Shown in pieces: positions 16,241 to 63,987 of a stretch of 64,000 nucleotides of DNA (position 1 is its first letter; each line of letters opens with the position of its first letter). This DNA comes from a virus, in IMG/VR virus record IMGVR_UViG_3300043598_000004, positions 1 through 64,000 of that record; one strand, written 5' to 3'. The notes beneath the pieces were generated by a model. That model saw nothing but the letters and a program-made list of their open reading frames with translations. It did not search any database and was not told the DNA's origin. The position numbers and the translations under genes are program-made.

Positions 16241-16276
16241 TTCTGTTCCTCCTCCTGCGGTGCAATACCGCAGTTC

Positions 16277-16305: not shown

Positions 16306-16319
16306 CTTGTCGAAAGTTC

Positions 16320-16348: not shown

Positions 16349-16381
16349 TCGCTATCAACAACTCGTCGATAGGAGCAACAG

Positions 16382-18084: not shown

Positions 18085-18104
18085 TCAACAATGAAAGGAA
18101 TCAA

Positions 18105-20191: not shown

Positions 20192-20216
20192 GCTTTATTG
20201 CGGCGATCTCTGGTGA
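19962..20216 (+). CDS. Small phage protein of conserved type (84 aa)
   Basis: AAGGAAG precedes ATG 19962. MIVAAAIKFGE, HHHGDIILA, VQGFLTSSGRFLDRKEA and ELYCGDLW match a common phage hypothetical family I recognise by pattern. Last gene before the terminator. Confidence 0.78.
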   Translation: MIVAAAIKFGELVCSMQAPHHHGDIILACSTAGLPIPICAVQGFLTSSGRFLDRKEAAIRAVQKNQLARANVHSNGELYCGDLW

Positions 20217-20220
20217 CGTG

Positions 20221-20241
20221 AAAAAGCCGCCCGTGGGCGGC
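20221..20241 (-). terminator. Leftward terminator
   Basis: On the minus strand GCCGCCC-AC-GGGCGGC is followed by TTTTTC. It terminates the leftward 20264-20743 gene; the hairpin may also slow rightward transcription. Confidence 0.75.
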
Positions 20242-20263
20242 CTTGTCATTGGATCGCTTCGGT

Positions 20264-20743
20264 TCAGACTTCGGTAGCGCCACCGTCAGCGCCGGCCTTG
20301 CCTGTGGTTTGCTCGGTGGATTCGCTTGGGTCGGTCGTGACGTTTGGGGTAGCCGTGCGATCACTGATCGTCGCGGCCGTGTCCGGCGCGTTCGGTGCAG
20401 CGTCCTTCACCAGGTCGTCAACCACGCTGGCCTTTTGGACAACGGCGTTGACTGCGGCTTGCAGGCGCGGGCTCAGCTTGCCTGCGTCCTTGGCTGCAGC
20501 TTCGAGTTCGTCGACCTTGCTAACCAGCGCGGAGGTTTCCCCGCCGATTTTGTCGAGCTTGCCCGACAGGTCTTCAAGGGCTTGTGCTGCATCGTCTTGT
20601 TCACTCATGATTTTCTCCAGTTTGGCGTTGATAACGTTGAAATTTGCGTTGAGTACAGTGAGGGCTATTGCCAGTTTTTCAACCTGACCACGCGAGGCGA
20701 TCTTGTGCAATGGCCAGGGAAGGATCAAGTGTGTTTTTGACAT
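20264..20743 (-). CDS. Coiled-coil protein (159 aa, or 114 aa from internal start)
   Basis: A long helical heptad region from about residue 20 to 95, then a Thr/Asp/Pro-rich tail. The internal ATG at 20608 has a good GGAGA ribosome site and would give 114 aa; the longer form has no clear site but extends the coiled coil. It is a lone leftward gene ended by its own terminator. Function unknown. Confidence 0.6.
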   Translation of the reverse strand: MSKTHLILPWPLHKIASRGQVEKLAIALTVLNANFNVINAKLEKIMSEQDDAAQALEDLSGKLDKIGGETSALVSKVDELEAAAKDAGKLSPRLQAAVNAVVQKASVVDDLVKDAAPNAPDTAATISDRTATPNVTTDPSESTEQTTGKAGADGGATEV

Positions 20744-20835
20744 GGCGATCGATATTGTCGATGAATCGTCATGACCGATTTGTGACTAGAAGTTACAGTT
20801 CACTTTTGTTTGCAGAACTATTCTTGTGCAAGTCG

Positions 20836-20863
20836 TTGACTTAATAAACGGTTCGTTGATAAT
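20836..20863 (+). promoter_or_regulatory. Rightward promoter candidate
   Basis: TTGACT, 16-base spacer, GATAAT, followed by the CTCAATCCACC leader motif (20873-20883) and GGAG before ATG 20899. Confidence 0.6.
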
Positions 20864-20898
20864 CGAGGCTCCCTCAATCCACCACAGGAGTTCTCCAC

Positions 20899-21126
20899 AT
20901 GCCCAACATGACCGTCGGCGACATCAGCAAAAAGATTGGTTTCATCGTTACCCGCAAGGACATCGAAGCGCTCGGCATCACGGCCGCAGAGCACGTCAAG
21001 GGTTATCCTAAGTTCTCGCCGGCAGCTTTTCCCGCGATCTGCCGGGGCTTCATCACGAAGCTGGAAGCATTGGAGGCGGGTTACGTACCTGCCGAGGAGC
21101 CCGATGATGATGACGACGAACTTTGA
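20899..21126 (+). CDS. Small phage protein (75 aa) with DDDDDEL tail
   Basis: TVGDISKKIGFIVTRKDIEALGITAAEHVKG and FPAICRGFITKLEAL match a small phage family I recognise by pattern, perhaps a DNA-binding helical protein. The tail EEPDDDDDEL is encoded by a GAT-rich run whose shifted frame contains three ATG codons used by the next gene. Confidence 0.75.
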   Translation: MPNMTVGDISKKIGFIVTRKDIEALGITAAEHVKGYPKFSPAAFPAICRGFITKLEALEAGYVPAEEPDDDDDEL

Positions 21127-47712: not shown

Positions 47713-48612
47713 TTCGTCGTCTTTCCTTGCAGTGGTTGAAGTCGAGCCGGATAGCTCGTCGAATAACACCTGCATCGCCTGTGAAGGCGTTGCAATGGCG
47801 TCGATGAGGCCAAGCGACAAAGCGTCGTCGGCGTCATAACAACGGGCTTCGGTGTCTCGCACCTTGGCCGCGTCAATGTTCCTGTGCGATGCGATAAGCG
47901 CAACGAACTTTCCGCCCGTCTTATCGACATTCTTTTGAATGGATTTTTTGGCATCGGCAGACAGCGCTTCGTAGGGATTGCCGTCGACCTTGTGATCACC
48001 AAAATGAATAAACGTGATCTTGATTCCAATATCCGTCAGCAGCTTCGAGAAGTCCATGTGCATCGCCACTACACCAACGGAGCCTGCCCCGCCACTGGGG
48101 GTCATGACCACCTTCGATGCCGCTGAAGCCAGGGCGTAGCCCGCGCTGTATGCGTTGGAATCAATCAAGGACATGCTTGGCTTCACCGCCGCAGCCTGAC
48201 TCATCTCAGCGGCGAGTTCAAAGCAGCCTGCAGCTTCCCCACCGTTGCTGTTCACGTCGTAGACAATCGCCTTCACGTCATCATCAGCCATGGCTTGAGC
48301 CAGCTGACGACGAATGAAGTTGTACCCCGTGATGAATCCATAAGATTGCCCGAAGCGATTGATCAACGTTCCTTGAATCGGAATAATGGCCACACCGTCA
48401 GCGAAGGCGAAAGGTTTGCTTTGCTCTCTTTGACTGAAGCCAAAGGACTCGCACATCTCGCCAAGGCGGGCCTGAAACTTCACCTGAGCTTCAACAGGAT
48501 CGGTCATCGCCATATCGCGAAGGTCTTGTGCAAATCCTGAATACGCCGGTGACAGCGCCACAGCTTGAAGATGCATCCGCGAGAGTGCGGCGCGGGCAGC
48601 GATATCGCTCAT
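47275..48612 (-). CDS. S49-family head maturation protease with scaffold tail
   Basis: 445 aa. ClpP/crotonase-like fold with the probable nucleophile S156 in NAYSAGYALA and general base K208 in HKVDGNPYE. The N-terminal PIQGTLINRF and VNSNGGEAAG are conserved. The C-terminal third is a scaffold. Processes scaffold and portal in head assembly. Start overlaps the portal stop by ATGA. Confidence 0.92.
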   Translation of the reverse strand: MSDIAARAALSRMHLQAVALSPAYSGFAQDLRDMAMTDPVEAQVKFQARLGEMCESFGFSQREQSKPFAFADGVAIIPIQGTLINRFGQSYGFITGYNFIRRQLAQAMADDDVKAIVYDVNSNGGEAAGCFELAAEMSQAAAVKPSMSLIDSNAYSAGYALASAASKVVMTPSGGAGSVGVVAMHMDFSKLLTDIGIKITFIHFGDHKVDGNPYEALSADAKKSIQKNVDKTGGKFVALIASHRNIDAAKVRDTEARCYDADDALSLGLIDAIATPSQAMQVLFDELSGSTSTTARKDDEMSDTKAQPGATDQASKDAADAQAAANAKAIADASATASATAKTAERARVQGILNCEEAKGKSALANHLALNTDMSVDDAKAMLKVAAAEAPAAAAGAAFNQAMDNTANPNVGANGGGAGGDGQTPAQRILANQELATGRKLAAVK

Positions 48613-50225
48613 AGTTCGTCGTCCTGGTTGTCGGCAGCGTTATTCGGAGCCGCAACCGCAGGTTTCGCGGCAGACGGGCCGATCTTGTCTTCGAGCCCGA
48701 GCGTCTTCAGCATTGCGACTTCACGAGCCCGTTGCTCCAAGATCGTTCGCCAGTCTTCGCCCAATCGGGCGCATTCTGCCTCAAGCGTAGAAAAGCCGTT
48801 TGTGATGCGAAGGGCCGCAGCCTCGGTTTCCTTCTTCTCATCGATCTGGCCACGAGATGCGCCGATCCATGAGCCCTTCAAGAGAGCCTCACGCATCAAA
48901 GGATCGTAGAAGATGTCCTTGGTCTTACCTGGGGGCAACGGCACACGGTCGTTGTTGATCTCTTCTTCGAACCAAAGCGAATAAACCGAATTGGCCAGGC
49001 GATCGGCAACCTGCTTCTTCCGCGACTGCATGTACTTCCACGTCTCAGCCATCGAGGCGCGAGCGCTTGAGTAGTTCGTCTTCGTGTAATCACGACTGAA
49101 TTGTTCATAAGAGAGCCCAAGCCCTGCAGCTGTGTGACGCAAAAGTGATTCTTCGAAACCATCACCCACGCCGCCAGGAGAACCAAGCGGCTTCATCGAC
49201 AGCTTGGTCCCTGGAAACAAGTGCGGCATCTTCACGCCATCGACGTTGATGTTCTTGGCGCCGTCGCTGTACTGGCTCAACGCAGTCATGTACTCGCCGA
49301 GCAATGACGCAAACCCGGTCTGTCCAGCACCCATCGATGCGAAGACGACATCGCTCGGGAGATCGGATTCGATCGCCGCCGCATAGCTGGCCTGGACCAC
49401 GGCGTTCTGTAGTGTCACGTCCTGGAACTTCTTCGTCATGTGCATTTGCTTCAGCACAGACACCATGTCGGCCACGCCGCGAGTTTGATCAGCCTGCAAT
49501 GGATCGGTGATATGGATCACCATGCGCCGGCCCCACGGCTTGCGAGCCTCGACGCGACGAAACTCGGTGCGTCGTGGATCGAAGATTTCGCCAGGGTGCA
49601 CCACGCGAATCCAATAGGCGATCGGCGCACCGTAGATGTCATGCTCGACACCACGGCGCAGCTTGGTATCGTCAGGCAAGCCATCAGGATTCGAGAGCCG
49701 TGACGGCGACACCATTTGAAGAGCCGTAGAGAATGGGCGCCCGCCGCCGCGTAGCCACTCTGCGGTAGCCAGGACTTCACCGGTCATCACAAAGCCGCCA
49801 ATCGCGAGGCGAATCAGTCCCGTGAGGGTCATCGAGCCACCAGCGTCAAACCAGCAATCGAGCGAATCAGCGTACAGGTTGAAGCGCGATTCCATTTGCA
49901 GCTGAAACGCTTCGGCCCATTCCTTCGTTGCGCCAAGCGTTTTCCAGTCGGGTTGCGCATTGAATCGGTACTGTGCACCGACAATCGAATCCCTGTGGAT
50001 ATTGACAGCACCCGTCGCATAGCCGTCGTTCTGCACCGACTCGCGCCCGCGAGCATCAATGGTGTCCTTGACGGAATTAATTTGCCTATCGGGGGAGACG
50101 ATGCCGGGGTTCCACGAGAACATCTCTCGATTCAGAACCTCAGCCCCTTCGAGTGCGCCGCCCATCGCACGTTGCTGGACGGGCGCCAGCACTGTCGATG
50201 TGGGCACTAAATTGAGGGTGCTCAT
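48609..50225 (-). CDS. Portal protein, lambda gpB family, with DQDDEL-type tail
   Basis: 538 aa from ATG 50225; the open frame to 50408 lacks support. AIGGFVMTGEVLATAEWL, DTKLRRGVEHDIYGAPIAYWIR, QMHMTKKFQDVTLQNAVVQASYAA and GLGLSYEQFSRDYTKTNYSSARAS are typical. The C-terminal ANNAADNQDDEL type end is acidic with a final Leu, overlapping the protease ATG. Confidence 0.92.
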   Translation of the reverse strand: MSTLNLVPTSTVLAPVQQRAMGGALEGAEVLNREMFSWNPGIVSPDRQINSVKDTIDARGRESVQNDGYATGAVNIHRDSIVGAQYRFNAQPDWKTLGATKEWAEAFQLQMESRFNLYADSLDCWFDAGGSMTLTGLIRLAIGGFVMTGEVLATAEWLRGGGRPFSTALQMVSPSRLSNPDGLPDDTKLRRGVEHDIYGAPIAYWIRVVHPGEIFDPRRTEFRRVEARKPWGRRMVIHITDPLQADQTRGVADMVSVLKQMHMTKKFQDVTLQNAVVQASYAAAIESDLPSDVVFASMGAGQTGFASLLGEYMTALSQYSDGAKNINVDGVKMPHLFPGTKLSMKPLGSPGGVGDGFEESLLRHTAAGLGLSYEQFSRDYTKTNYSSARASMAETWKYMQSRKKQVADRLANSVYSLWFEEEINNDRVPLPPGKTKDIFYDPLMREALLKGSWIGASRGQIDEKKETEAAALRITNGFSTLEAECARLGEDWRTILEQRAREVAMLKTLGLEDKIGPSAAKPAVAAPNNAADNQDDEL

Positions 50226-50226
50226 C

Positions 50227-50439
50227 TCAGAAAATGAATCGAGCTGGACCTGAAGGAATACCCGTTGCGCAGCCCAGTTCGGCTTCAAGCGCCTGGATAT
50301 ATCCGTAGAGGTTTTGCTTGTTGGCTGCGGCGTATTCAACGCGGGAACCATTCTGATCGACCACCACGCGGGGCATGCCGCCCGTGTGCAATTGATGGTA
50401 TGCGACACGCGCTTGCGCGAGCATCTCTGCCTTGGTCAT
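50227..50439 (-). CDS. Head-tail joining protein gpW-like (70 aa)
   Basis: MTKAEMLAQARVAYHQLHTGGMPRVVVDQNG and NLYGYIQALEAELG match the lambda gpW fold by order and length. Between terminase and portal, as in lambda. Confidence 0.88.
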   Translation of the reverse strand: MTKAEMLAQARVAYHQLHTGGMPRVVVDQNGSRVEYAAANKQNLYGYIQALEAELGCATGIPSGPARFIF

Positions 50440-50448
50440 TGTTGTCCT

Positions 50449-52527
50449 TTAGGCAAGGGCTTTGCCGAAGCTCGAAAAATCGTACGCGGATTTTAGGGTA
50501 TTTGAGAATTTAGGAGATTCTGCGGGCGCCCGCACCAGATCATTCGGGGCTCCATCGGCCCAATCTGCCGCCCAAGTTGGCGGATTCGACCAGTCCAAAT
50601 GCTCGACTTTGATCAATTCTGAAATGCAGAGCCCAAGTGCGTAATAGCTCAAATCCCAGTTCTCGTTACGATGGCCAGCGGGGTTCGTCCAGCCCTTGAT
50701 AGTGCGAACTTCCGTACACAGTTCGGCGTAGAACTTGTCATCCATCCAAGAAGGGGTTCTGTACATTCCCTTGCCTGGCTGCACCACATCGAGCCTCCCA
50801 TTCAGGTCATCTTTCAACAGGTTGGAATTGAGCAAGAGGACGGGCACGTCACCCTTCGCAATGGCTTTCTTGTCCCGCTGGTTTGAATCGGGATAGCTGA
50901 TACGGCAACGTGGTTGTCCCGGCGAAGGATCGCCCTTGATCAGAATGAAGCGGCGATGCTGGTTCTTGGCTCGAAGCCCCCGATAGTAGTCATAGGCTTT
51001 GCTGGTCACGCCTTCCTTGCCACCTGAGTCGCAGCCAACGAACTTCAACCCCATCATCCGCCCGCTGTCGTCGTCGAGCGGGTACTCCTTCGACAGCACT
51101 TGCTCTGTCAATTCATCCCAATCCTCTAGATAACTGGCAGGCTTCACCCACAAGCGCTCACCGTCATCGTCTGTTCGCTTCGACTTTCGAACATCGAAAC
51201 GATCGACCACCACCGTGTCGAATGGCCTACCTGCCAGAACGCCAGTCACCAGGACAACCCACATGTTTTGCTGCACGTCGACCGTGGCCACCAGGAAGCG
51301 CACGCCTGTGGGAACATGGCGCTCGCGCAAGTGCTCAGCCCGCGACTTCAGCGTCTCAGGCAGACGCAAGTCATCGAGGTTTTTGTCGTAGAAAGGTTCA
51401 CCCAAGTCGTTGTTGTAGAACTTCCTGAGAGCCTCTTGAGAACCTGTGCGCTCGTACTCATCATTGGCGTCCAGATAGAGCGCTACGAGCTTCTTCCAGT
51501 TCGTAAACACAGCTGCCAGGCCGCGCATCCAGAACGATGCAATCGAGGTTCTCGGATTTGGCCCGAACACCTGACCGTTGTTGTCGACACCCTGGCCATC
51601 CTTCACCCACGTGCCGCGAGCATTCATCTCCTCGCGATCGTCGGTCAGCATCTCGTGAGCACAGAACGGGCATTTGAGCCGAACCGTCTCCGACACTTCC
51701 AAATTCGTTTGCCCCTCGCGCCGCTCGTACGTGAGCATCTCGAAGCGGCCCTCAAAGTAATTGCTGCACTTCACGCAAGGCCAGTACCAGCGGCGCCGAT
51801 CGCCACGGTTGTAGAGAGCAAGGATGCCCTCGCACGGAGGAGCTTCGTGAGCGGTCTTCGCAATCCATTTCAGGTTTTCAACCATCTTCGACGGTGACGA
51901 TTCCGCCAACGTCATCGCATACGAGCCGAAGGTCGTCGTTCGCTTCGAGGCCAAGTCATACGGATTGCCGTCGCCGTCCACGTCCATCGGCATGCGGTCG
52001 AAGTCAGTCATCACGATGCGACCGATCGGCTTGCCCGCCAGTTCAGTAGGCGTCGGCCACGAGATCGTGAGAAGCATCCCGTTGCGATACTGCTTGTCGA
52101 ATTTATTATCGTAGTCAGCGCCCTTCAGCATCATCTTGCCGATCTCTTCACTGTGCCGGTGCAGACGATCGATACGACGAATCGAGAAGTCGCGGCCCGC
52201 CGTGTTGGTCGGGCACACGATCATCATGTCCATGGGCTCGACTTTCACGGCATATGCCACCGTGTTGATGATGAGCGAATCCGTCTTGCCGGACTGAGCT
52301 GGACCAACAAAAATCAGTCCGTTGTATGAGCGCGATGTGAAAGTATCCATTGGCTCAACCATCATCGGTGTGGTCGAGTTCAACCATTTACCGACGTACG
52401 CGCCAGGCTGATTGACGTAGCGATACTTTTCTGCAGCTTGCGAAACGCTCAACTCATCGGACGGCTGAAGCATCTCAGCCACCGACATGATCATTTCGCC
52501 AATGGATTTAAAGCTCATCGTCGTCAT
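50449..52527 (-). CDS. terL: Terminase large subunit, lambda gpA family
   Basis: 692 aa if started at the first ATG (52527), which lies inside the tail of the small subunit gene; ATG 52518 is also possible. Walker A GPAQSGKT at residues 75-82, a Walker-B-like MTDFDRM, a zinc-like C...C...C...C region (CVKCSNYF, CPFCAHEM), and the nuclease region with GCDSGGKEGVTSKAYDYYR. Cuts and translocates DNA into heads. Confidence 0.93.
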   Translation of the reverse strand: MTTMSFKSIGEMIMSVAEMLQPSDELSVSQAAEKYRYVNQPGAYVGKWLNSTTPMMVEPMDTFTSRSYNGLIFVGPAQSGKTDSLIINTVAYAVKVEPMDMMIVCPTNTAGRDFSIRRIDRLHRHSEEIGKMMLKGADYDNKFDKQYRNGMLLTISWPTPTELAGKPIGRIVMTDFDRMPMDVDGDGNPYDLASKRTTTFGSYAMTLAESSPSKMVENLKWIAKTAHEAPPCEGILALYNRGDRRRWYWPCVKCSNYFEGRFEMLTYERREGQTNLEVSETVRLKCPFCAHEMLTDDREEMNARGTWVKDGQGVDNNGQVFGPNPRTSIASFWMRGLAAVFTNWKKLVALYLDANDEYERTGSQEALRKFYNNDLGEPFYDKNLDDLRLPETLKSRAEHLRERHVPTGVRFLVATVDVQQNMWVVLVTGVLAGRPFDTVVVDRFDVRKSKRTDDDGERLWVKPASYLEDWDELTEQVLSKEYPLDDDSGRMMGLKFVGCDSGGKEGVTSKAYDYYRGLRAKNQHRRFILIKGDPSPGQPRCRISYPDSNQRDKKAIAKGDVPVLLLNSNLLKDDLNGRLDVVQPGKGMYRTPSWMDDKFYAELCTEVRTIKGWTNPAGHRNENWDLSYYALGLCISELIKVEHLDWSNPPTWAADWADGAPNDLVRAPAESPKFSNTLKSAYDFSSFGKALA

Positions 52528-53098
52528 CGATCACAACAATCGGCTCCGATATTTTCTCGGTTGGAGGCTTCACTTGGAACTTCTCTTCGAGCCGTTTCAG
52601 CATGTTGACCTTTGCCCCTTTAACCAATTGCTTGATCACGTCACGTTGACGATCGGTAAGCTCCGTTGCCCGCTCGACACCATCGGTCAACAGGTCCAAT
52701 TCCATCTTTAGAGACTTCACCATCTCACCCACTTGCTCGATGACCTTGGTCGTCGGCCACAAGTCGCCGGCCCGTAGTTCGAACTCCTGACGACTTCGCT
52801 GGCCTGCCCAGTATTCTTTGCTCAGTTGCTTCGGCAGTTGGTCATGATTCATCGTCATCATGGCCTTGCGCACTTGCTCTTCGCTGAGCTTGCCCATCTT
52901 CTCGGCGACGGCAGCGATCTCATAGATCGATGCGCCGTGACGCGTCCCCACGGGCTCGATGCCATACATGCGTTGCTTCAGCGTGCGATGGTCCGCCCTG
53001 AACAAAACACCTAGCTCTGAAAGGTTTGCGCCCTGGAAAAGAATTGCGCGACTTTCCGCATCCAGGTTGCGGCCCTCAGTTTTTAGCTTAGTTGCCAT
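52508..53098 (-). CDS. terS: Terminase small subunit (DUF1441/Nu1-like) with DDDDEL tail
   Basis: 196 aa. N-terminal HTH-like part (FQGANLSELGVLFRADHRTLKQRMYG), then the DUF1441-type middle (YWAGQRSRQEFELRAGDLWPT) and C-terminal coiled coil. The tail VVIDDDDEL overlaps in another frame the start of terL (MTTMSFKS). GGAAG precedes ATG 53098. Binds the packaging site. Confidence 0.85.
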   Translation of the reverse strand: MATKLKTEGRNLDAESRAILFQGANLSELGVLFRADHRTLKQRMYGIEPVGTRHGASIYEIAAVAEKMGKLSEEQVRKAMMTMNHDQLPKQLSKEYWAGQRSRQEFELRAGDLWPTTKVIEQVGEMVKSLKMELDLLTDGVERATELTDRQRDVIKQLVKGAKVNMLKRLEEKFQVKPPTEKISEPIVVIDDDDEL

Positions 53099-53303
53099 TG
53101 AGCTTCCAATCCAGGAATTGTTTTTGGCATCCGCATCCGCAGTTGCAAAGGAGAATCACTTTGTCAACGTGATAAACGGGTAGTTCCCGCGTCTGGTTGC
53201 GGTAGCCTGCATACGTGGCATAGGCGATGCCGAGAACCGTTGCTGCCCTGGCCGAATTCAAGCCAAGCTGGTTTTCGAAATCGATCAGGAACTGCGAAGC
53301 CAT
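53088..53303 (-). CDS. Small HTH-like protein at head of late operon (71 aa)
   Basis: From ATG 53303; ATG 53321 is possible. LGLNSARAATVLGIAYATYAGYRNQTRELP has a helix-turn-helix pattern; CNCGCGC follows. Overlaps terS by 11 bases. May regulate late genes or assist packaging; inference from fold pattern only. Confidence 0.6.
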   Translation of the reverse strand: MASQFLIDFENQLGLNSARAATVLGIAYATYAGYRNQTRELPVYHVDKVILLCNCGCGCQKQFLDWKLNGN

Positions 53304-53345
53304 CGGACCTATGCATTGCATAAAAACCGAATGGTAGCAGGAACC

Positions 53346-53377
53346 AAAAAAAAGAGGCGCCGTGTGACGGGCGCCTC
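53346..53377 (-). terminator. Rho-independent terminator of the replication operon
   Basis: On the minus strand GAGGCGCC, 8-base loop, GGCGCCTC followed by eight T. It separates the replication operon from the late operon. Confidence 0.88.
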
Positions 53378-53432
53378 AAATCAAACATCAATCCCCCTTA
53401 GACCTCTCCACAAGGCCACAGGAACCTGCATT

Positions 53433-55031
53433 TTACAACTCATCCGAGGTATCGACTAACAATTTTTGCTTCCTATATGCAGCAATCAGCCTGCGTAATT
53501 TGGCGAACATCTTCGCTTGGGCGTCTTCCTTCCCCTTGATGGTCTTCGCAACAAGCTCATCCAGGGTGCCAACGGCCGTTAGCATATAAACAACAACCGG
53601 ATGTTTTTGTCCCTGCCGAGCAATACGTCCGACCAATTGCATGAACCGTTCAAGCGAATGGAACAAATCAAACAACACCATGATGTGCCCGCCTAACTGC
53701 AGGTTCAGTCCGTGCCCGCCTGACTGGGGATGCATCAGCAACAGCGGAATCTTCCGCTTGTTCCACGCTGCCACGCACTTGCCTTCCTTGTCCATTACAA
53801 CAGCCTGCGGGAACGCTTTCTTCAGCCGATCCAGCGACGATCGCCAGTGGTAGGCAACGATGATCGGCTCCCCTTGCGCCTCTTCGATCAACTCTCGAAG
53901 CTCTTCGATTTTCTGATCATGTAAATGGTGAACCTTCTTCACCTTGCGCATGTCATCCGTCTCGATGTCCTCTTCGAGATACGTCTCATAGAGCACACCC
54001 GAGGCCATTTGCAACAGCTTGGCTGAGAGAGCCGCAGCGGTCTTTGCTTCCACTTCGCTGCCATCGGGCAGGGTGACTATGAACTCACGCTGCATCTCCT
54101 CGTAGAGAGCCATCTCACGCTCGCCAAGTACTACCGGCCTGTGGATGATCGTCGGCTTTTCGCGAGGTAGGTACTGATCGGCTTTCATGACCAACGTAAC
54201 GTCGGCAATCTTGGCCAGGATTTCATCATCAGCATCGGGACGTAGATCGTATTTGCGGGTGTACTTGTTTTTATTGAAGTACTTCAGGAAAAAGCGAGTG
54301 CTCGTTTCACCGAACCGCTTGCCACGATCCAGCAGAAACGTGATTGACCAAAACGCCGTGTAGCCCTCAGCTGCAGGCGTGGCCGTCAAGGCATGCAGAC
54401 GCGTGATGTAGCCCTCATACTTGCGCACCTTGGCCAGGGCCTTGAATCGCTCGCTTTGCCAGTCCTTGAAGCCGCTGGCTTCGTCAATGAAGACTGTCCG
54501 GTATGGCCACCTGTGCTGATGAAGCTCCACGAGCCACACAAGCCAATCGTTGCTCACAATGTGCACGGTCGCAGGATCACGGGCCTGGATAGCTCGAATG
54601 CGATTCTTCTCCTGCGTCTCAGCCCTGCCGCGAACGCCCTGCGCCTCCGCGCCGCTCATGCCATTCAATCGAGCTTCCGCAGCTGCAGCCTTGCCCGCCG
54701 CAATCACGCTCGGATGATCATCGGAAACGTTGATCAGCTGATGGTTCAAATGTGCGATGTGGGACCACTCGCGTTTCTCATTCGGCCACGTCTGCGTTGC
54801 GACCCGCTTCGGCCCGACGATGAGAATCTTGCCCTCGTGGTACTCGTCAATCAGGTCCGCGATGAGGGTCCAGCTGCAGATTGATTTGCCGAGCCCCATG
54901 TCCATCAGCAAGAGGCTGAAGGGGTTCTCTTTCAGGAACGGAATCGCGATATCGGTTTGATAGTCATGCAAGTCGGCTCGTGTGTGAATCACATCCGTGA
55001 ACTTGGCACGGACCCATTGCATCAGACTCAT
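53433..55031 (-). CDS. SNF2/DEAD-type DNA helicase with SDEL C-terminus
   Basis: 532 aa. Walker A LLMDMGLGKS at residues 41-50, DEAS box in VFIDEASGFKDW near 181, and the C-terminal helicase motif VGRIARQGQKHPVVVYML. Typical phage SNF2-like helicase next to VRR-NUC. The end DTSDEL is followed by TAA and a terminator, not by another gene, so the tag is not a by-product of overlap. Confidence 0.88.
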   Translation of the reverse strand: MSLMQWVRAKFTDVIHTRADLHDYQTDIAIPFLKENPFSLLLMDMGLGKSICSWTLIADLIDEYHEGKILIVGPKRVATQTWPNEKREWSHIAHLNHQLINVSDDHPSVIAAGKAAAAEARLNGMSGAEAQGVRGRAETQEKNRIRAIQARDPATVHIVSNDWLVWLVELHQHRWPYRTVFIDEASGFKDWQSERFKALAKVRKYEGYITRLHALTATPAAEGYTAFWSITFLLDRGKRFGETSTRFFLKYFNKNKYTRKYDLRPDADDEILAKIADVTLVMKADQYLPREKPTIIHRPVVLGEREMALYEEMQREFIVTLPDGSEVEAKTAAALSAKLLQMASGVLYETYLEEDIETDDMRKVKKVHHLHDQKIEELRELIEEAQGEPIIVAYHWRSSLDRLKKAFPQAVVMDKEGKCVAAWNKRKIPLLLMHPQSGGHGLNLQLGGHIMVLFDLFHSLERFMQLVGRIARQGQKHPVVVYMLTAVGTLDELVAKTIKGKEDAQAKMFAKLRRLIAAYRKQKLLVDTSDEL

Positions 55032-55327
55032 CGCATGTACGCCATGAACTCTTCCACGTTGTCAGTCCACTTCACGATAATGCCGTGCTCGCGCATTTCT
55101 CTATGCCTGGCCAATTGCTGCAGCGTTGGCTCCGAGCCTTTGCGCTTGAACTCCCAAAACACGATCACACCGCTTCGAGCAAAGAAGCGATCGGGCCATC
55201 CACGGGATGTTTGACTCACGAGCTTTTGGCATAACCATCCGCGCTTCTCGGCGAACTCGACGCAAGGCAACTCGACATCGGGAATCTCAAGCTCAACACG
55301 TTCGTACAGCAAGGCAGCTTTCCTCAT
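55028..55327 (-). CDS. VRR-NUC domain nuclease (99 aa)
   Basis: Start at ATG 55327 in the stop of the polymerase gene. VEFAEKRGWLCQKLVSQTSRGWPDRFFARSGVIVFWEFKR shows the VRR-NUC core (PDR and EFK). Likely a structure-specific nuclease acting on replication or recombination intermediates. Coupled to the helicase by ATGA. Confidence 0.88.
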   Translation of the reverse strand: MRKAALLYERVELEIPDVELPCVEFAEKRGWLCQKLVSQTSRGWPDRFFARSGVIVFWEFKRKGSEPTLQQLARHREMREHGIIVKWTDNVEEFMAYMR

Positions 55328-57417
55328 AGTTCTTCGTCCTTTCGACACTTGGCGCAATATCTCGCGTCTTCAGGTTTCGAAGCGAACTCTACCCACATGT
55401 CGCGGCGTTGCTTCCGCTTCATCCCACATCGAGCGATGCCAGTGCTGGCGTCGACACGGTGAACTGTTTTCTGATCCTCTAGGCGTCCGTAGAACATCCC
55501 TGTGCGTCCGATGAGCGAAGGGTCCGGTGACTCCATGCCAACGTCGTCCAGGATCGCGTACGCCTCACGCTCGTACCACTCGTAGTCGATGTTGCGGGGC
55601 AACTCATCAGGCAGGCGCATGCACGGCTGCGCCCCCTTGCTGCGGGGCACTTTGTTGCCGGTTTCTTTGTACGTCAGTGTCCCGTGCACGTCATCGGCGT
55701 AGTAATAGCGCGGCACCTTGGCCACCAACTCGCCTTCGAACATCGCGCCGCCCTTGACCTTGCGAACGCTCACGAATTTGCGAATGTCCTGGCACTCGCG
55801 AATCGTCGACTCCACCGGCGTGCCGTCCTTCAGGAAAGCAATCACAGCGTCATAACAAATCTCAACCATCGGCGTTTTCTTGAGCCCGAATGCTGCAGGG
55901 ATGCCGCGACCTGACGGAGCAAACAACCCCTTGCGCTTGGCTTCGAGTCCGCCGTTGCCATCGTGCTTGAACGCCACGTAGTTATTCACGTTCTGTGCAT
56001 GCAGCGATCGATACCGAACTTCCTCAGTGATCAGTCCTGTCTCATTTTCCCAGTCGAAGACCACGCAACAGAACATCCCGTATTCGGCGCGAGGAACGCG
56101 GGTAACGAAGCCATCGGTGTTCGCACTGATGACTTCCCAACCGTGCAGCACCACGTCTTCGATCAGCATCAGGATATCCAGTTGGCCGCTGACGGTTGTC
56201 TGAATCATCATCGGCGGCGAGTAGACAATCGAAAAAGGCGAGCCAGTCTTACCAAATATTCCATTGGTCGCGATCTTTCCTGACTCGGCTTCATCCTTGC
56301 GACCGGCGATCTTCGCTGCATCACGTTCGTCCTTGATACGCGTGTACTCAACCGTGAAGTGCCCGCGCATGTTGGCAGGCTCGCGCCCACTCGTGATGAT
56401 CAGACTCGGGTAGTAGCCACGCACATCACGATCGACAATGATGTACTCATCGTCCTCGTAGACACTGACGCTCTTCTCTTGAGAATGCAGTCCACCGATG
56501 CCCATCTTGTAGACGTTGTTCCCAAGATGAATCTCGGCGCCGCCTTCGAGATGCTCCTCATCCGTCTCTTCGTCCTTCTTCTTCGCACCGAAGATTTCCG
56601 GCAGTTGCACGTAGCCATCACGCTTGACAATGAACGGTGCTCGAAGCAAGCGGCTCAACATCTCCTGCATCGCAGGCGTCTGGAATTTGATGTATGCCGG
56701 CGCCTCGAAGTGGAACGCACCCGGTTGGATGTCCGGCTTGTAGATGCGCTTGCCGCCCATGCGCTTCTCGACGCGAGCCCGCATGATCGCTTCACCGATC
56801 TGTGCATCCGACTTGCTGCGGCAGTCCACGCCGATCCTGGCACTGATCTTTGCTCGAATGGCCACCTGAGGCTGCAACTCGGTCGCGAGGTCGTCGGTCA
56901 CTTCGAGGTCGTTGTCCAGATAGGCAAGAACCTCTTCGATTTCATCGTCTTCGAGCCACGTGTCAGGGGTGTACGGCAACTCCTGCATGTGTCGCGAGTG
57001 CATCATGCCGGCGTACTTCTTCAGGCTCGCACGCTGCGCAGCTGAAGGTGCTACTTCCATCAGGTCGATGTGATCGATCCAGTCGGGCACGCGGATGTTG
57101 TACGAGTCATAGAACTCCCAATACTTCATCCCGCCGATGATGATTCGGTCGTTGGCTGTCTTCAACTCCTCGCACGTCGCGCCCTGCATCGCGAGCATGA
57201 TCATCGGCAAGTCGTAGTTGATGCCGTTGAAGGTATAGAAGCGGTGATAGCGCAGGATCGTCGAGATGCGCGGCCGATCAAGCTCTTCACCCACGCGCAT
57301 AGCGACCTTGACGACCTTGCGAGTCTCTAGAGATCGAAACCCGATAGCCCACAGGTTCCGGTAGCACTCCGAATCACAAACCGCCTGAGGCCGCGTGGCT
57401 AGATAGTCGATTGGCAT
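55324..57417 (-). CDS. Family B DNA polymerase with 3'-5' exonuclease and KDEEL tail
   Basis: 697 aa. Exonuclease: D15-S-E17, FNGINYDLP (N64, D69), and YLDND near 166-170. Polymerase: motif A DVRGYYPSLI (D331), motif B KIATNGIFG (K381), motif C SANTDG (N433-T434-D435). The first Asp of the usual DTD is replaced by Asn, as in related phage enzymes I know by pattern. The C-terminus has CGMKRKQRRD...CAKCRKDEEL, a small metal-like Cys group. Replicates the phage genome. Confidence 0.88.
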   Translation of the reverse strand: MPIDYLATRPQAVCDSECYRNLWAIGFRSLETRKVVKVAMRVGEELDRPRISTILRYHRFYTFNGINYDLPMIMLAMQGATCEELKTANDRIIIGGMKYWEFYDSYNIRVPDWIDHIDLMEVAPSAAQRASLKKYAGMMHSRHMQELPYTPDTWLEDDEIEEVLAYLDNDLEVTDDLATELQPQVAIRAKISARIGVDCRSKSDAQIGEAIMRARVEKRMGGKRIYKPDIQPGAFHFEAPAYIKFQTPAMQEMLSRLLRAPFIVKRDGYVQLPEIFGAKKKDEETDEEHLEGGAEIHLGNNVYKMGIGGLHSQEKSVSVYEDDEYIIVDRDVRGYYPSLIITSGREPANMRGHFTVEYTRIKDERDAAKIAGRKDEAESGKIATNGIFGKTGSPFSIVYSPPMMIQTTVSGQLDILMLIEDVVLHGWEVISANTDGFVTRVPRAEYGMFCCVVFDWENETGLITEEVRYRSLHAQNVNNYVAFKHDGNGGLEAKRKGLFAPSGRGIPAAFGLKKTPMVEICYDAVIAFLKDGTPVESTIRECQDIRKFVSVRKVKGGAMFEGELVAKVPRYYYADDVHGTLTYKETGNKVPRSKGAQPCMRLPDELPRNIDYEWYEREAYAILDDVGMESPDPSLIGRTGMFYGRLEDQKTVHRVDASTGIARCGMKRKQRRDMWVEFASKPEDARYCAKCRKDEEL

Positions 57418-57450
57418 TTTCAGTTGAACCCATCAGACGCAAATGAAAAT

Positions 57451-57474
57451 GCCCTGGCCCCGCGAGGCCAAGGC
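57451..57474 (-). promoter_or_regulatory. Hairpin between SSB and polymerase genes
   Basis: GCCCTGGCC-CGCGA-GGCCAAGGC imperfect stem followed on the minus strand by ATTTTC. Possible attenuator or weak terminator that lowers polymerase expression relative to SSB. Confidence 0.4.
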
Positions 57475-57493
57475 AAGCTCTCATGCCGGCGAT

Positions 57494-58165
57494 TTACATT
57501 TCGTCGTCGTCGTCGATGCCGTTCGATGCACCTTCGGTTTCAGGCAGGTTGTCCCATGCGTCGCTGTCGTCCACGGTGCCGCCGCCAAACGCCTTGTCGT
57601 CCTTCCAATGGATCACCGACACCATGCCGGCGCTCACGCGCTTGGGATAGGTCTTGGTCTTGCCCTTCACGTTGCCGTCGAAGAACCACGGACGCACCAG
57701 GACGTGCCCCCAACATCCCGAGAAAAACACGCGGTCGATCTCGGCAGATTCCACCAGGATTTCACCGCGGCCGTTGCGGGCCTTCGGTCGATTCTTTTGC
57801 TCGCGCATGGAGATAAGCCAGTGGCCCGCCGCGATCTCGTCTTTCTTCCCGGTCTTTTGGATGATCTTTTGGTCACCGTCCGACATGCACCACTTGTCCA
57901 TGGGCACCTGGAATTTGTTCTTGGCGCAAATCGCCTGAATGCATTCCTTCATCGCGTTCTTGGCCGCAAGGTGCGTTGCCTTGGGCAGCATGGCCGTCAA
58001 TTGCCACGAGTAGGTTTTCTCGCCGGCTTCATTCGTTTCCTCTCGTTTCTCGCCAAGGTTGGCAAAGCTGAATCGCACCTTGTCGATGCGAAGCACGGGA
58101 TTGCCCTCGCGATCGTTGAAGATGACGAAGTGTTCACCGCGTTTGATTTCAGTCAGGTCGGACAT
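57494..58165 (-). CDS. Single-stranded DNA-binding protein, DUF2815-like, with DDDDEM tail
   Basis: 223 aa. LTEIKRGEHFVIFNDREGNPVLRIDKVRFSFANLG, YSWQLTAMLPKATHLAAKNAM, and VRPWFFDGNVKGKTKTYPKRVSAGMVSVIHWKDDKAFGGG match DUF2815, a phage SSB family. Ends GIDDDDEM. Acidic tails are standard in SSBs, where they contact replication partners; here the same form is shared by other proteins. Confidence 0.85.
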   Translation of the reverse strand: MSDLTEIKRGEHFVIFNDREGNPVLRIDKVRFSFANLGEKREETNEAGEKTYSWQLTAMLPKATHLAAKNAMKECIQAICAKNKFQVPMDKWCMSDGDQKIIQKTGKKDEIAAGHWLISMREQKNRPKARNGRGEILVESAEIDRVFFSGCWGHVLVRPWFFDGNVKGKTKTYPKRVSAGMVSVIHWKDDKAFGGGTVDDSDAWDNLPETEGASNGIDDDDEM

Positions 58166-58192
58166 GGTTAAAAGGTTCCTTCAGGTACAGGG

Positions 58193-59509
58193 TTAAAGGT
58201 CATCGGTTTCACAGTTTTCATCGAGCAAGTCCGCAAAGGCGATCTCACTCACATCCACGATGGCGGGGCGCCGATCAGACGCATCCACCAACGTCGCCTT
58301 CCCCGGTGGCTTGTAGACCAACGGTTTCAGGATCTTCTCGATATCCGCAGCTGCGTGAACACCGTGCTTGCGCAACAGGCGTTCAACTTCAGCGGGACTC
58401 TCGATTGTTTCTTTCACAAGCTCCTCACGCTCGATGCCGTACGCGTCAAGCGCTTTAACGGCACGCTCAATATGGGTGAACTGTCTATGTGTTCGGCCCT
58501 CCACGAGCTTCTTTCCAGGCACAACTATTCCGTTGATGGCTCGCCGTGTCAATTCGTTGTGCAGCGCCTTCCACCAGCGCTCCACCATGGGCCTGAACTT
58601 CAGCATGAAAGCCATGTTCTCGACGCTGATGCGGTGCGGCTCCATGTACTTCGTGAAGATGCCGTCGTCCAGGCGTTGCTTCAGCGCTTCTTCCCGCTCC
58701 GGTGCGATCGGTTGGAACAGGTCTGCGAACGCCGCAGTAACGATGTCCTCTTGCATTTGGATGTTCGCAGCGCAATCGGTCTTCACGCGGCAGAACAGGC
58801 ATTGCTTCGACCCTGCGGTGCGTGGCGCATCGAGGCGCCAGGCCAAGTGCGCTCGCACCCTCGCGTACTCAGCCCATTCCAGTAGGAACTCACGCGTGAT
58901 CGTCCACGTCTCGAAGATATCCATTCGAGGCTGAACGATGCGGATGTTGATCTCCTGGAAGTCGTAGAGCCAATCGAACTCATAGAAAAACCCAAGCGCA
59001 TAGAGAAGCGCCTGAGTGTTGTTCTCGGCATGCACGGCATGACCCTTGCCGTACTTGAAATCGGTGATCGTCAGCTTTTGCCACGAGCATGCAGCATGGT
59101 CCGCCGTGCCGCCCTGGTTGGGTATCGGCGTGATCGCGTCGTAGTAGACCTTCGTCTCGATGTAATGCTCACCGGGTATCCAGTCGCACGCATCGACGTA
59201 CATCTGACAGTAGTCGAGCATCGTGTCAGTGATCTCGATGACGTGCCATTCGTCGCCGTTCTTGACGCGTTGCCTCGTGCCCACCAGTTGCTTCGGTTTC
59301 TTGTCGGTGCGCAGCCAGAGTTCGCAGACGCCATGGGCCACGGTGCCCTCAGCGGCATCAACCCCTGAATCATCTTTCGCGAGTATGTTCGCGATGAGTC
59401 CGCCTGAACAATTCAGCCACAGCGGCGAGCCCGATGCCGAGAAGATGCTGTGAGCACCATTCTTCAGCGACTCCGCAAGGGCAGAAAGGTTCAGACGGTG
59501 CTCGGTCAT
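58193..59509 (-). CDS. Cas4-like PD-(D/E)XK nuclease, DUF2800-like, with TDDL end
   Basis: 438 aa from ATG 59509 (TAATG overlap). GGTADHAACSWQKLTITDFKYGKG carries the D...DxK catalytic pattern, and CLFCRVKTDC supplies Cys residues for a possible iron-sulfur cluster. The order matches DUF2800 phage nucleases. Probably processes DNA ends in replication or recombination. The tail ENCETDDL is followed by a 27-base gap. Confidence 0.85.
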   Translation of the reverse strand: MTEHRLNLSALAESLKNGAHSIFSASGSPLWLNCSGGLIANILAKDDSGVDAAEGTVAHGVCELWLRTDKKPKQLVGTRQRVKNGDEWHVIEITDTMLDYCQMYVDACDWIPGEHYIETKVYYDAITPIPNQGGTADHAACSWQKLTITDFKYGKGHAVHAENNTQALLYALGFFYEFDWLYDFQEINIRIVQPRMDIFETWTITREFLLEWAEYARVRAHLAWRLDAPRTAGSKQCLFCRVKTDCAANIQMQEDIVTAAFADLFQPIAPEREEALKQRLDDGIFTKYMEPHRISVENMAFMLKFRPMVERWWKALHNELTRRAINGIVVPGKKLVEGRTHRQFTHIERAVKALDAYGIEREELVKETIESPAEVERLLRKHGVHAAADIEKILKPLVYKPPGKATLVDASDRRPAIVDVSEIAFADLLDENCETDDL

Positions 59510-60165
59510 TACATGTCGCTGTCGCCGCCGCCGTTGCCCGCTTCGGCTTCGGTGATCGCCGCTTCGAGGGCAGCGCACAACGCGTCGATGTTCGCGTCCG
59601 CGACTTCCTTCAGTTTCGCCGCCTTACCTGTTGCCGCGATGATGGCCTGCGTCTTTTCCTTGCCGCCGTTCGCGTCGCCGATCGTCTCGCGGTACTTGAC
59701 GGCCAAGGCTGACATCTCCTCGCGGGTCCTGGTCGGCTTGACCACGGTCGCCGCAGGTTTGACTGCCGCCGTGGTTGTCTTCGTTGCTGCAGCACCAGCG
59801 GGCTTGCCGCCACCTAACAGGAGTGCTGCGGTGTTGGCTTCGACGGCCTTTGTCAGCGCCAGGACGCTATCTTCTAGAGACATTTGATTTTCCTTATCGG
59901 CCGGGTTTTGATCAGGTCGCCCGATGGCCAGTCGGTCGACCTGTTTGATTCGTTCCTTGAGGTTCTCAAGGAACCACTCCTGTTCGCTCTCATCGAGTTC
60001 AGCAAACATGCGTTTGATGCGATCGGCAACGTTGTGATGACCTTCGTAGTGAGCCTTAGCCAGGTTGAACGTGCTGATGAGCCCTTCACGCTGCCAACGA
60101 CTATCACAGGCCGCGATGCGCTTTTGCAGCGCCTTCGCCTGCGGCGTTTCCTCGAAGGACTTCAT
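59509..60165 (-). CDS. Hypothetical replication-module protein (218 aa)
   Basis: Start at ATG 60165 by TGATG overlap with the MazG-like stop. Helical N-terminal domain (KRIAACDSRWQREGLISTFNLAK), then an Ala/Thr-rich linker and a second helical domain ending EAGNGGGDSDM. An internal in-frame ATG at 59883 has a good AAGGAA ribosome site and would give a 124-aa form. Function unknown. Confidence 0.7.
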   Translation of the reverse strand: MKSFEETPQAKALQKRIAACDSRWQREGLISTFNLAKAHYEGHHNVADRIKRMFAELDESEQEWFLENLKERIKQVDRLAIGRPDQNPADKENQMSLEDSVLALTKAVEANTAALLLGGGKPAGAAATKTTTAAVKPAATVVKPTRTREEMSALAVKYRETIGDANGGKEKTQAIIAATGKAAKLKEVADANIDALCAALEAAITEAEAGNGGGDSDM

Positions 60166-60887: not shown

Positions 60888-61172
60888 ATGATATTCCCGC
60901 GATGGGTCAACAAACCCGGTACAACAAAGCAAGAGAAAGCTTCTAACCGGTTGCGATATCTGATCCTGCGCCTCGCGATCGACCTGGACAAGGATGCCAC
61001 GTTGATGAAGGTCGCGGAGAAGGTGGGATTCTCCCACTCATACATCAGTTTTCATATCACCAAGGGGTACTTTTCTGCATCCCTGGCCACGGCTTTCGAA
61101 GATACCTTCGGTCGCGAGCTTTGTCCTAACGAGTGGTTGCGTAATCCGCTCCTCATACCAGTCACGAAGTGA
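60888..61172 (+). CDS. HTH transcription regulator (94 aa)
   Basis: LMKVAEKVGFSHSYISFHITKGYFSASLATAFEDTFGRELCPNEWLRNPL is a helix-turn-helix with the recognition helix SYISFHITKGY, Cro/YdaS-like in style. Its position beside a divergent promoter with an inverted repeat suggests that it controls that region. The stop overlaps the primase GTG. Confidence 0.75.
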   Translation: MIFPRWVNKPGTTKQEKASNRLRYLILRLAIDLDKDATLMKVAEKVGFSHSYISFHITKGYFSASLATAFEDTFGRELCPNEWLRNPLLIPVTK

Positions 61173-63703
61173 CGACACGTCCGAATTCATCGGACGAATC
61201 CAAGCGTATCGACTTCCTGGCACTCCACGGTGCCAAGTTGCTCGACAACGGCTATAGCATCGTACCGATCAGGCAGGGCGGCAAATCCCCCGACTTCGAG
61301 GGATGGGCGAAGGCGAAAGCCTCCAAGGAACAGTTGCGTGAGTGGCTCGACGGCGGGCACCGCAATGCAGGCGTGGGTATCCTGACCAAATACACCCCGG
61401 CCGTAGACCTTGATATCCGCGACCCCGACGTTGCGGCCCTCATGGTGACCTACGTGAAGGAGAAAATGGGCGGCACGCTCATGCGCATCGGGCAAGCTCC
61501 CAAAGCGCTCTTCTTCTTCAGAACGGATGTCCCCTTCAGGAAACGCCGAACCACCGAACGCGAGGACGACTGGGGCTTGAAAAACCAGATCGAGGTCCTT
61601 GGTGAAGGTCAGCAAGCGGTGGCCTACCACCGGCATCCAGAGACGGGCAGGCCCTACACCTGGCCCGACTACGAAGAGAACCCCCTCGAAGTACGCCAGG
61701 CCGATCTCCCGACGATCACGCAAGAGATGATCGATGGGCTCTTTGCCTACTTCGAGGAGGTTTGCGACGGGCTCGGATGGGATATCAAGAAAGCTGCCAG
61801 GGGTAGTGCCAAGGCGATCAACCAGGACAACCCGTTTCTGGAAGACACCACGCCGGTCGACATGCCCGATGGTGAAATCTTCAACCAGCTGATGCTCGTT
61901 CCCGGCGCCGACGACTATGACGTGTGGTCGCAAATCGGCATGTGCCTCTATCACCAGTGGGACGGTGCCGAGATCGGCAAGCAGTATTGGCACGAGTGGT
62001 CGGAGACGGCCGACAACTACGACCGGGAGGCTCTAGAAGACAAATGGAACAGCTTTTCCATCGATGGCAAGCTCCGGGCGCCAATCACCGTCCGATCGAT
62101 CCTGAAATGGGCCGCTGAGGCTGTAGAGCGCACACGGCTCGAAGAGGGCAATCGTCTGCGCACCATGTTCGCAGCGGCACACGACATGGCGTCGTGGGAC
62201 AAGGCACGAAAGGAAACTCAACATGCTGAAATCGACACCATCACGCGAGACGGCCTTGCTGCGATCGCGAAGGAAAGGCGGGACGCGATTACTGGTATCC
62301 GATCTTCGATCCAGACCATCCGTAAAGCGCTTGCTTTTGTCTATATCGCTCCGAAGGGTGACAAGATTCCGGGATGGGTTCGGCCCTACGTCTACGACAT
62401 AAGCGACGATCGGTTCTTCGACACGGAAAGGAAGTACTCGGCGACCAAGCAAGGCTTCGATGCGATGCACGATCGCGAGGCGATGACGAAGAAGGACATC
62501 GTTGACGGTCGGAGTTCGCCATCGGATAACGCTTCCACGCTGGCGCTCAACTTCTTCAGGATCAGGGCAGTCCAGGGGCGACGCTACGAGCCAGGGCAGG
62601 ACGAAATCTTCACGAACCTCGAAGGTACGTTCGCCAACAGCTACACCGAAAAGGAAATCCCGGCACTGCCCGAGCATCGGATACCAAGGGATGTCAAGAA
62701 CGTCCAGAGGGTGAAGGATCACATCGCCCACTTGCTACCGCACGAGCACGAGCAACGCATGTTCATTGACTGGCTCTCGTGGGTTGTTCAGAACCCCGGC
62801 AAGCACATGAACTATGCGATCCTGCTTCAAGGGGTCGAAGGTGACGGGAAGAGCTTCTTCGGGTCATTGATGCAGGCTGTAATGGGCATCTCCAACGTGA
62901 CCATGTTGAACGCCCACATCTTCGAGTCAGACTTCACGGATTGGACAGTCGGTCAATGCCTGTCATGCGTCGAAGAGGTTCGCTTGATCAAGGTACACAA
63001 CAAGTACGAAGTCTTGAACCGCATCAAACCCTTCGTCACCAACGACACCATCGAGGTACACCCCAAGGGAAAGCCAATTCACAATGCCAAGAACACCACG
63101 AGCTATCTACTGTTCTCGAATCACAAGGACGCCTTGCCATTGGATGATGATGGCCGGCGCTACCTGGTGCTTTTCAGCCAATGGCAAAGGCGGGTCGAGA
63201 TTCGTGCCTTCAAGGATGCACACCCCCGCTATTACACCTTGCTGTATCAAACCTTCATCGAGTCACCGGGTGCCTTGCGTCAATGGTTGCTTGATCACCA
63301 GCAAGCGGCCAACTTCGATCCGACCGGCGATGCTCCTCAAACCAAGGCTCGCAAATTCATGATTCGCCAAGCGAAGCCTGAGTTCATTCAGGAGTTGGAT
63401 CAGGTGATCAGGGAAGACGAAACGCTATGCGCCTCAGAAGAGTTGGTCGACGTGACTGCGCTTGCTGAAGTGTTCATGGCCAGGGGCTTTGATTGGCCGG
63501 CGCCGAAGACGCTTGGAACAATGATGACCAGGGATGGATATGAGGAGTTAGGAAAGGTAATGATCAATGGAACTCGTGACAGTTACTACTCCAAAAGCCC
63601 CCATTTGTTCCGCAAAACCTCTGGTGATGACGACGTGACAAATGCCTCGTTAATACGCGAATATTTAAGCGAACGTTCTGCCAAGATTGACGATGACCTT
63701 TAG
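61169..63703 (+). CDS. Primase-polymerase / DnaB-like helicase fusion with IDDDL end
   Basis: 844 aa from GTG. N-terminal prim-pol domain (GYSIVPIRQGGKSPDFEGW, AVDLDIRDPD near residue 78). A primase C-terminal type-2 region follows (ADDYDVWSQIGMCLYHQWDG). The helicase has Walker A GVEGDGKS near residue 555 and a D5/VirE-like context (YLLFSNHKDALPLDDDGRRYLV). Starts replication forks. The tail KIDDDL is followed by a terminator. Confidence 0.9.
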   Translation: MTTRPNSSDESKRIDFLALHGAKLLDNGYSIVPIRQGGKSPDFEGWAKAKASKEQLREWLDGGHRNAGVGILTKYTPAVDLDIRDPDVAALMVTYVKEKMGGTLMRIGQAPKALFFFRTDVPFRKRRTTEREDDWGLKNQIEVLGEGQQAVAYHRHPETGRPYTWPDYEENPLEVRQADLPTITQEMIDGLFAYFEEVCDGLGWDIKKAARGSAKAINQDNPFLEDTTPVDMPDGEIFNQLMLVPGADDYDVWSQIGMCLYHQWDGAEIGKQYWHEWSETADNYDREALEDKWNSFSIDGKLRAPITVRSILKWAAEAVERTRLEEGNRLRTMFAAAHDMASWDKARKETQHAEIDTITRDGLAAIAKERRDAITGIRSSIQTIRKALAFVYIAPKGDKIPGWVRPYVYDISDDRFFDTERKYSATKQGFDAMHDREAMTKKDIVDGRSSPSDNASTLALNFFRIRAVQGRRYEPGQDEIFTNLEGTFANSYTEKEIPALPEHRIPRDVKNVQRVKDHIAHLLPHEHEQRMFIDWLSWVVQNPGKHMNYAILLQGVEGDGKSFFGSLMQAVMGISNVTMLNAHIFESDFTDWTVGQCLSCVEEVRLIKVHNKYEVLNRIKPFVTNDTIEVHPKGKPIHNAKNTTSYLLFSNHKDALPLDDDGRRYLVLFSQWQRRVEIRAFKDAHPRYYTLLYQTFIESPGALRQWLLDHQQAANFDPTGDAPQTKARKFMIRQAKPEFIQELDQVIREDETLCASEELVDVTALAEVFMARGFDWPAPKTLGTMMTRDGYEELGKVMINGTRDSYYSKSPHLFRKTSGDDDVTNASLIREYLSERSAKIDDDL

Positions 63704-63728: not shown

Positions 63729-63750
63729 GCCACCTTCGGGTGGCTTTTTT
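63729..63750 (+). terminator. Rho-independent terminator after primase
   Basis: GCCACC-TTCG-GGTGGC followed by six T, 25 bases after the primase stop. Confidence 0.92.
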
Positions 63751-63757: not shown

Positions 63758-63913
63758 GTCCGTTCTTATTGTCCTGATAAGTCAGCTTTGTCTTGATATT
63801 TACTAGATTGACTACGCACGTGCGGAAAAAAACAACTTACAAAAAAATCCTGACGAACCCGATATGTCCGTTTTTCAGGACAAAGCTGACTTATCAGGAC
63901 AATAAGAACGGAC
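63758..63913. repeat. 35-bp perfect inverted repeat with 86-base loop
   Basis: Arms 63758-63792 and 63879-63913 are exact reverse complements. The loop is A/T-rich with a perfect palindrome CGCACGTGCG at 63815-63824 and two A runs. Lies directly after the primase gene. A replication origin or transcription-blocking structure are the main options. Confidence 0.75.
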
Positions 63914-63918: not shown

Positions 63919-63987
63919 TCTCTAGAGAAGTCGGCCATCTCTAGAGTTAATTCGACCCCGACCTGGTGCCCTGGTCATCTCTAGAGA
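63919..63987. repeat. Three TCTCTAGAG sites
   Basis: TCTCTAGAGA at 63919-63928 and 63978-63987, and TCTCTAGAGT at 63938-63947, each preceded by CA. Spacings are 19 and 40 bases. Operator or iteron candidates beside the inverted repeat. Confidence 0.55.

Follow-up and report, generated by a model that had tools for sequence, protein, structure and literature searches.

We propose that the inverted repeat at 63758-63913 of the window (the whole 64-kb stretch of DNA analysed, bases 1-64000 of a 64,154-base virus record) is probably the replication origin of a pRN1-type replicon, built on a primase-polymerase (prim-pol) and SF3-like helicase protein, in which iterons would be bound by the C-terminus of the primase and two diverging forks would be started. 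This reading is favoured because the layout is that of plasmid pRN1, because the structure recurs in relatives of the phage, because the iterons co-vary with the primase C-terminus, and because the protein has initiator and helicase relatives in NrS-1 and ORF904. The features on which the argument draws are the following:

60888-61172, plus strand: gene of 94 amino acids overlapping the primase gene from upstream (phrog_7401, function unknown; putative regulator)
61169-63703, plus strand: prim-pol/helicase gene, 844 amino acids, proposed initiator (Pfam, PHROG, Foldseek, HMM)
63329-63700, plus strand: C-terminal domain of the primase (residues 721-844), predicted winged helix and proposed iteron reader (AlphaFold topology, co-variation)
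63729-63744, plus strand: terminator-like hairpin, then a T run (sequence; comparable hairpin in 39 of the 72 gaps of the family set)
63758-63796, plus strand: left arm (35 bp perfect, 39 bp with one mismatch)
63769-63777, plus strand: iteron 1, TTGTCCTGA (sequence)
63788-63796, plus strand: iteron 2, TTGTCTTGA (sequence)
63797-63874, no strand: A/T-rich loop, proposed melting region (37% GC)
63808-63839, plus strand: core motif kept in close relatives, 10-bp palindrome (63815-63824) and A tract (weak profile match)
63875-63913, minus strand: right arm of the inverted repeat
63875-63883, minus strand: iteron 3, TTGTCCTGA (sequence)
63894-63902, minus strand: iteron 4, TTGTCCTGA (sequence)

The arms are perfect over 35 bp (63758-63792 and 63879-63913) and match at 38 of 39 positions over 63758-63796 and 63875-63913, and no longer inverted repeat occurs within the window. 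The folding energy of the repeat was -77 kcal/mol, compared with -29.8 +/- 3.7 in 200 shuffles (z = -12.8). Between the arms lies a 78-nt A/T-rich loop containing the 10-bp palindrome CGCACGTGCG, and a stretch of 54 bp, containing the terminator-like hairpin and its T run, separates the repeat from the primase stop codon, so that the arms, loop, palindrome and placement described by the first-pass annotation are all borne out. The word TTGTCCTGA occurs twice per arm with a spacing of 19 bp and in mirrored orientation, and the arms are symmetric at non-iteron positions too. In a leave-one-out profile of the core motif the top match of the 64 kb fell at 63808-63839, although it was weak (7.2 bits, E 0.48), the runner-up scoring 2.5 bits. 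An Rfam search of the region returned only sub-threshold matches to eukaryotic miRNAs, produced by the hairpin, and the GC skew suggested earlier as a check drifted across the whole genome and did not locate an origin. The intergenic position between convergent genes and the strength of the RNA hairpin would also suit a transcription element, that is, a bidirectional terminator or an operator; we consider this highly improbable, since an ordinary terminator is separately present at 63729-63744, no T run follows the arms, the loop is as long as 78 nt, and the arm sequence varies among close relatives while the architecture persists.

Analysis of the protein encoded next to the repeat identified the Pfam domains Prim-Pol (PF09250), PriCT_2 and DUF5906 and a PHROG assignment as DNA primase. 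The protein matched NrS-1 by both Foldseek and HMM searches and ORF904 by HMM; the NrS-1 primase-polymerase (PDB 6k9c) is the closest solved structure to its helicase half, at only about 14% identity, and the closest annotated phage primase is that of Pseudomonas phage vB_Pae-SS2019XI (47% identity). The AlphaFold model of the C-terminus has the topology helix-helix-helix-wing, predicting a winged helix, and Foldseek with this model gave no significant match, the winged-helix matches being weak only. The repeat is thus directly 3' of a gene that would encode prim-pol, helicase and winged-helix domains, the last according to the predicted topology. The 94-residue protein gave no Pfam domain match; its gene occupies the place of a Cro-like or HTH gene in the relatives, annotated there as Cro or transcriptional regulator, and of orf56 in pRN1. 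An origin of the P4 alpha type was also considered and rejected because the primase is of the archaeo-eukaryotic kind (Prim-Pol PF09250) and not of the Toprim (DnaG-like) kind that P4 alpha has. P4 alpha works like the proposed initiator, in that a single protein primes, unwinds and binds the origin repeats by a winged-helix domain (PMC4234260).

The closest parallel to the whole arrangement is pRN1, whose minimal replicon consists of the orf56/orf904 operon, a terminator and an inverted repeat 54 bp past the stop codon, shown to be necessary and sufficient for replication (PMC4234260). Like the window, pRN1 has a small upstream gene (a regulator in pRN1, a putative one in the window), a gene for prim-pol, helicase and winged-helix domains (the last predicted in the window), a terminator, and a repeat with an A/T-rich loop 54 bp downstream; unlike it, pRN1 is an archaeal (Sulfolobus) plasmid with a stem of 21 bp and a loop of 58, and its protein carries the pRN1 helical domain in place of PriCT_2. 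The authors of that work stated that pRN1 has no iterons, proposed stem-loop recognition for such proteins, and pointed out that Bordetella phage BIP-1 has a comparable stem-loop following its replication gene (PMC4234260). In the pRN1 sequence that we fetched the stem is TTATGTCCATAGTGTCCAACT, in which the word TGTCCA stands twice at a spacing of about 9 bp, and both this stem (TATGTCCATAGTGTCCAAC) and that of BIP-1 (GTTTGCCTCGTTTGCCTC, two 9-bp words per arm around a loop of 73) hold two iterons of about 9 bp on each side. Although none were reported by the authors, the two stems fit an inverted-iteron architecture, a reinterpretation that we make from sequence alone. BIP-1/BPP-1 shares with the window the domains Prim-Pol, PriCT_2, SF3 helicase and winged helix (PMC4234260) and a 3' inverted repeat with two GTTTGCCTC iterons on each side of a 73-nt loop, and differs from it in that this putative origin is about 465 bp from the stop codon, in mid-genome and away from cos, with another iteron. 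The locus described here would thus add a further example to the kind of origin represented by pRN1 and BIP-1.

From the repeat the record runs on for another 241 bp. Its final 12 bases (GCTCTGCGCCCT) are identical to the 12-nt cos overhang annotated in Burkholderia phage BcepNazgul, and the genomes of phiAxp-2 and Chi end like this cos-like end. The gene order is that of Serratia phage JS26, with terminase, helicase, polymerase and exonuclease running leftwards, followed by a small gene and then the primase, both pointing right towards cos. With a 12-nt cos of the family's sequence and the replication genes at the right end, the phage is by its sequence Casjensviridae-like. A minus-strand ORF at window 1-309 is cut by the left end of the record, which is therefore incomplete there, the right end being at cos. 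Because the cos overhang is only some 230-385 bp away from it, and repeats near cos are typical of terminase sites, the inverted repeat might instead be a packaging element of cosB-like, terminase-binding sites. This we judge improbable: the same iteron architecture follows the replication gene in pRN1, which as a plasmid has no cos, and also in BIP-1, where it stands in mid-genome, it is displaced in one relative (L063), several relatives carry a separate GGNGCTATG motif at position -36 relative to cos, and in this phage the GCGCTATG repeats provide a better fit to such a function. In L063 about 2.5 kb separate the primase from the iteron inverted repeat, which lies downstream and has three AGGTARCGATA-type copies per side, suggesting that the origin can move. 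Near cos we also observed three direct repeats, GCGCTATGTTTKRCMGGATAT, at record positions 63993, 64019 and 64079 (mostly beyond the window end), which are candidate terminase-binding sites. Their CAGGATAT part resembles the cores of T-DNA borders, and the GCGCTATGTTTGRCAGGATAT repeats resemble a T-DNA border or a relaxase nick core; a nick-site reading was set aside because these repeats adjoin cos and because GCTATG is common to them and to the relatives' -36 element.

Relatives were collected from IMG/VR with the primase alignment as query (80 at first and later about 180 loci), and 72 non-redundant gaps between primase and cos, the window included, were scored for their strongest inverted repeat, with loops limited to 40-130 nt, as were 881 control tiles of equal length from elsewhere in the same loci. 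A repeat scoring at least 12 was present in 31 of the 72 gaps (43%) and in 13 of the 881 tiles, the remaining 41 gaps falling under the threshold, several of them rich in iterons. The arms of the relatives consist of mirrored tandem copies of a word of about 9 bp around an A/T-rich loop, the word varying by phage (for example TGTTCCAGATGTTCCA in L017, GTGCCGGAAGTGCCGGATA in L033 and AAGGTGACAAGGTGACA in L082), and the self-match of the arms had its maximum at offset 9 (5.29 against 2.62 when shuffled; pRN1, BIP-1 and 48 non-redundant gaps). Some relatives carry 9-13 iteron copies in both orientations, as in the AH2-like phages (13 copies of AGGTCCGAA) and L085 (11 of GTACCAGAA). In the closest relatives the loop has a conserved core with an A tract at its end, and a long inverted repeat with an A/T-rich loop after the terminator is kept in structure, with arm sequences differing even among close relatives. 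The corresponding gaps of BcepNazgul, AH2, Chi, JS26, phiAxp-2 and SS2019XI share gene order and position with the window and have phage-specific repeats in both orientations around an A/T-rich segment, differing from it in iteron sequence and number; the records consulted for these gaps hold no annotation of an origin or repeat, and our literature search found no published origin for Chi-like phages.

These comparisons leave practically no credence for a small insertion resembling a transposon (MITE) or for a foldback made during assembly, which the size of about 156 bp, the terminal inverted repeats and the closeness to the record end would have suited. Equivalent structures stand at the same position in relatives, exact arm DNA had zero matches in IMG/VR and GTDB contigs, blastn of the arm against phage records gave no close match, and neither a second copy in the genome nor a target duplication was seen. 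Among the matches listed for a blastn search of the whole 3' region against phages and plasmids, only a short terminator hairpin appeared. A foldback, that is, the contig-end artefact named by the first-pass annotation as a refutation, is rejected because the repeat sits in continuous sequence that runs on to the cos-like end.

The same origin could instead be recognised by the initiator through its shape, as an extruded hairpin or cruciform of the sort proposed for pRN1 and BIP-1, with the iterons being incidental. Points that agree with recognition by shape are the 35 perfect base pairs of the window, which include non-iteron positions, and the pRN1 experiments, in which one mutation of the stem needed restored symmetry to be tolerated, the loop was essential, and gel shifts and footprints with ORF904 revealed no specific binding (PMC4234260). 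In several relatives (L017, L043, L082), however, the symmetry ends at or near the iterons; many relatives have extra copies in the same orientation that are unable to pair in one stem (13 in L040, 11 in L085); the arms are tandem with a 9-bp period; and shape recognition does not predict that iteron sequence should track the C-terminal domain of the primase. We therefore regard recognition by shape as unlikely, and the functional unit seems to be the inverted tandem iterons around an A/T-rich core, the long hairpin being an extreme version of this unit. The symmetry of the window's arms between the iterons favours some role for pairing or a process that homogenises the arms, with which the pRN1 mutants agree.

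Evidence that bears on iteron reading by the C-terminus comes from pairs of closely related phages. In L033 and L036 the primase is identical up to about residue 580, as is the upstream HTH protein, whereas identity falls to 79% over the C-terminal 124 residues, and the iterons are GTGCCGGA and GAACCGGA, respectively. At the DNA level this divergence takes in the 3' portion of the gene as well as the entire repeat, and near-identity resumes just beyond the right arm, before cos. Further pairs show the same pattern, and in L045 and L046, which share their iterons, the C-terminus is 97% identical and the remainder 88%. When close pairs were scored automatically, the loss of identity in the C-terminus was 3 points with the same iterons and 16 with different ones (p = 2e-5, the pairs not being independent). 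In 17 hand-picked pairs the same-iteron and different-iteron sets did not overlap (p = 1e-4), the former including L167/L170, with a weak repeat, and L083/L090, with a C-terminus 8 points lower. A counterexample is L154 compared with L157-L159, where the iterons are different and yet the C-terminus is 95% identical. A correlation of the likeness between iterons with the individual primase domains, taken across every pair among 45 loci, did not discriminate; saturation of distant iterons is the probable cause, so that only close pairs are informative. Part of the co-variation is explained by linkage because the C-terminus adjoins the origin, and linkage without contact is a possible source of it; pure linkage is argued against in a single case, L033/L036, where identity returns on the cos side. 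Taken as they stand, these sequence comparisons suggest that the primase C-terminus reads the iterons.

The first-pass annotation, whose origin call has become the best-supported reading through the pRN1 layout, the recurrence and the C-terminus co-variation, was not supported in two respects, namely the three TCTCTAGAG sites that it listed after the repeat and, as set out above, the functional unit. The sites are indeed present at 63919-63928, 63938-63946 and 63978-63987, but they are outside the repeat and occur also at 5183-5192 and 57324-57333, so that they are likely a separate phage operator; the window holds nine matches over both strands against 0.14 expected, and four of the five places are the full palindrome TCTCTAGAGA. 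The early control region also contains a 20-nt inverted repeat (CATTTTGTCCGGGTAAAACC, 90%, window 4885-4904 and 5139-5158) and, at about 5250-5345, two copies of the word CCTTACTTGACRRACCTCGCCGG, perhaps paired early promoters. Separately, we observed that 17 predicted proteins (window 8418-21126, 48609-59578 and 61169-63703) have an acidic C-terminal tail of the D/E-D/E-D/E-L type (for example DDDEL), among them the DNA polymerase, a neighbour ending in DDDDEM, the exonuclease, the helicase, the primase and many early proteins; in JS26 the tail is found in 6 of 61 checked proteins, mostly replication ones, and it might serve for docking, as a tail common to these proteins, or as a degradation tag.

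Placing the origin reading into a mechanism, which we model on P4 alpha and pRN1, the C-terminal winged-helix domain of the prim-pol/helicase would bind the mirrored TTGTCCTGA iterons, two per arm, and one helicase ring would be loaded on each side of the A/T-rich core, with the rings face to face. The core would then melt and the prim-pol domain would prime both strands there, giving rise to two diverging forks. A wider proposal, to which we assign even chances, is that the origins of archaeo-eukaryotic prim-pol/helicase replicons from Sulfolobus plasmids to Chi-like phages form one class, in which mirrored tandem iterons of about 9 bp and an A/T-rich core behind the initiator gene are read by its C-terminus, in which a cassette of C-terminus and origin exchanged between phages sets replicon specificity, and of which the published stem-loops would be members with too few copies to be recognised.

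What the present comparison would add to the understanding of pRN1 and BIP-1 origins is the mirrored-iteron architecture and its apparent link to the C-terminal domain. As to how a prim-pol/helicase initiator locates its origin, the pRN1 authors concluded in favour of stem-loop recognition, and the alternative put forward here is that 9-bp iterons may be read by the C-terminal winged helix. The comparison provides candidate iterons for many phages and, in L033 and L036, a natural domain-swap pair.
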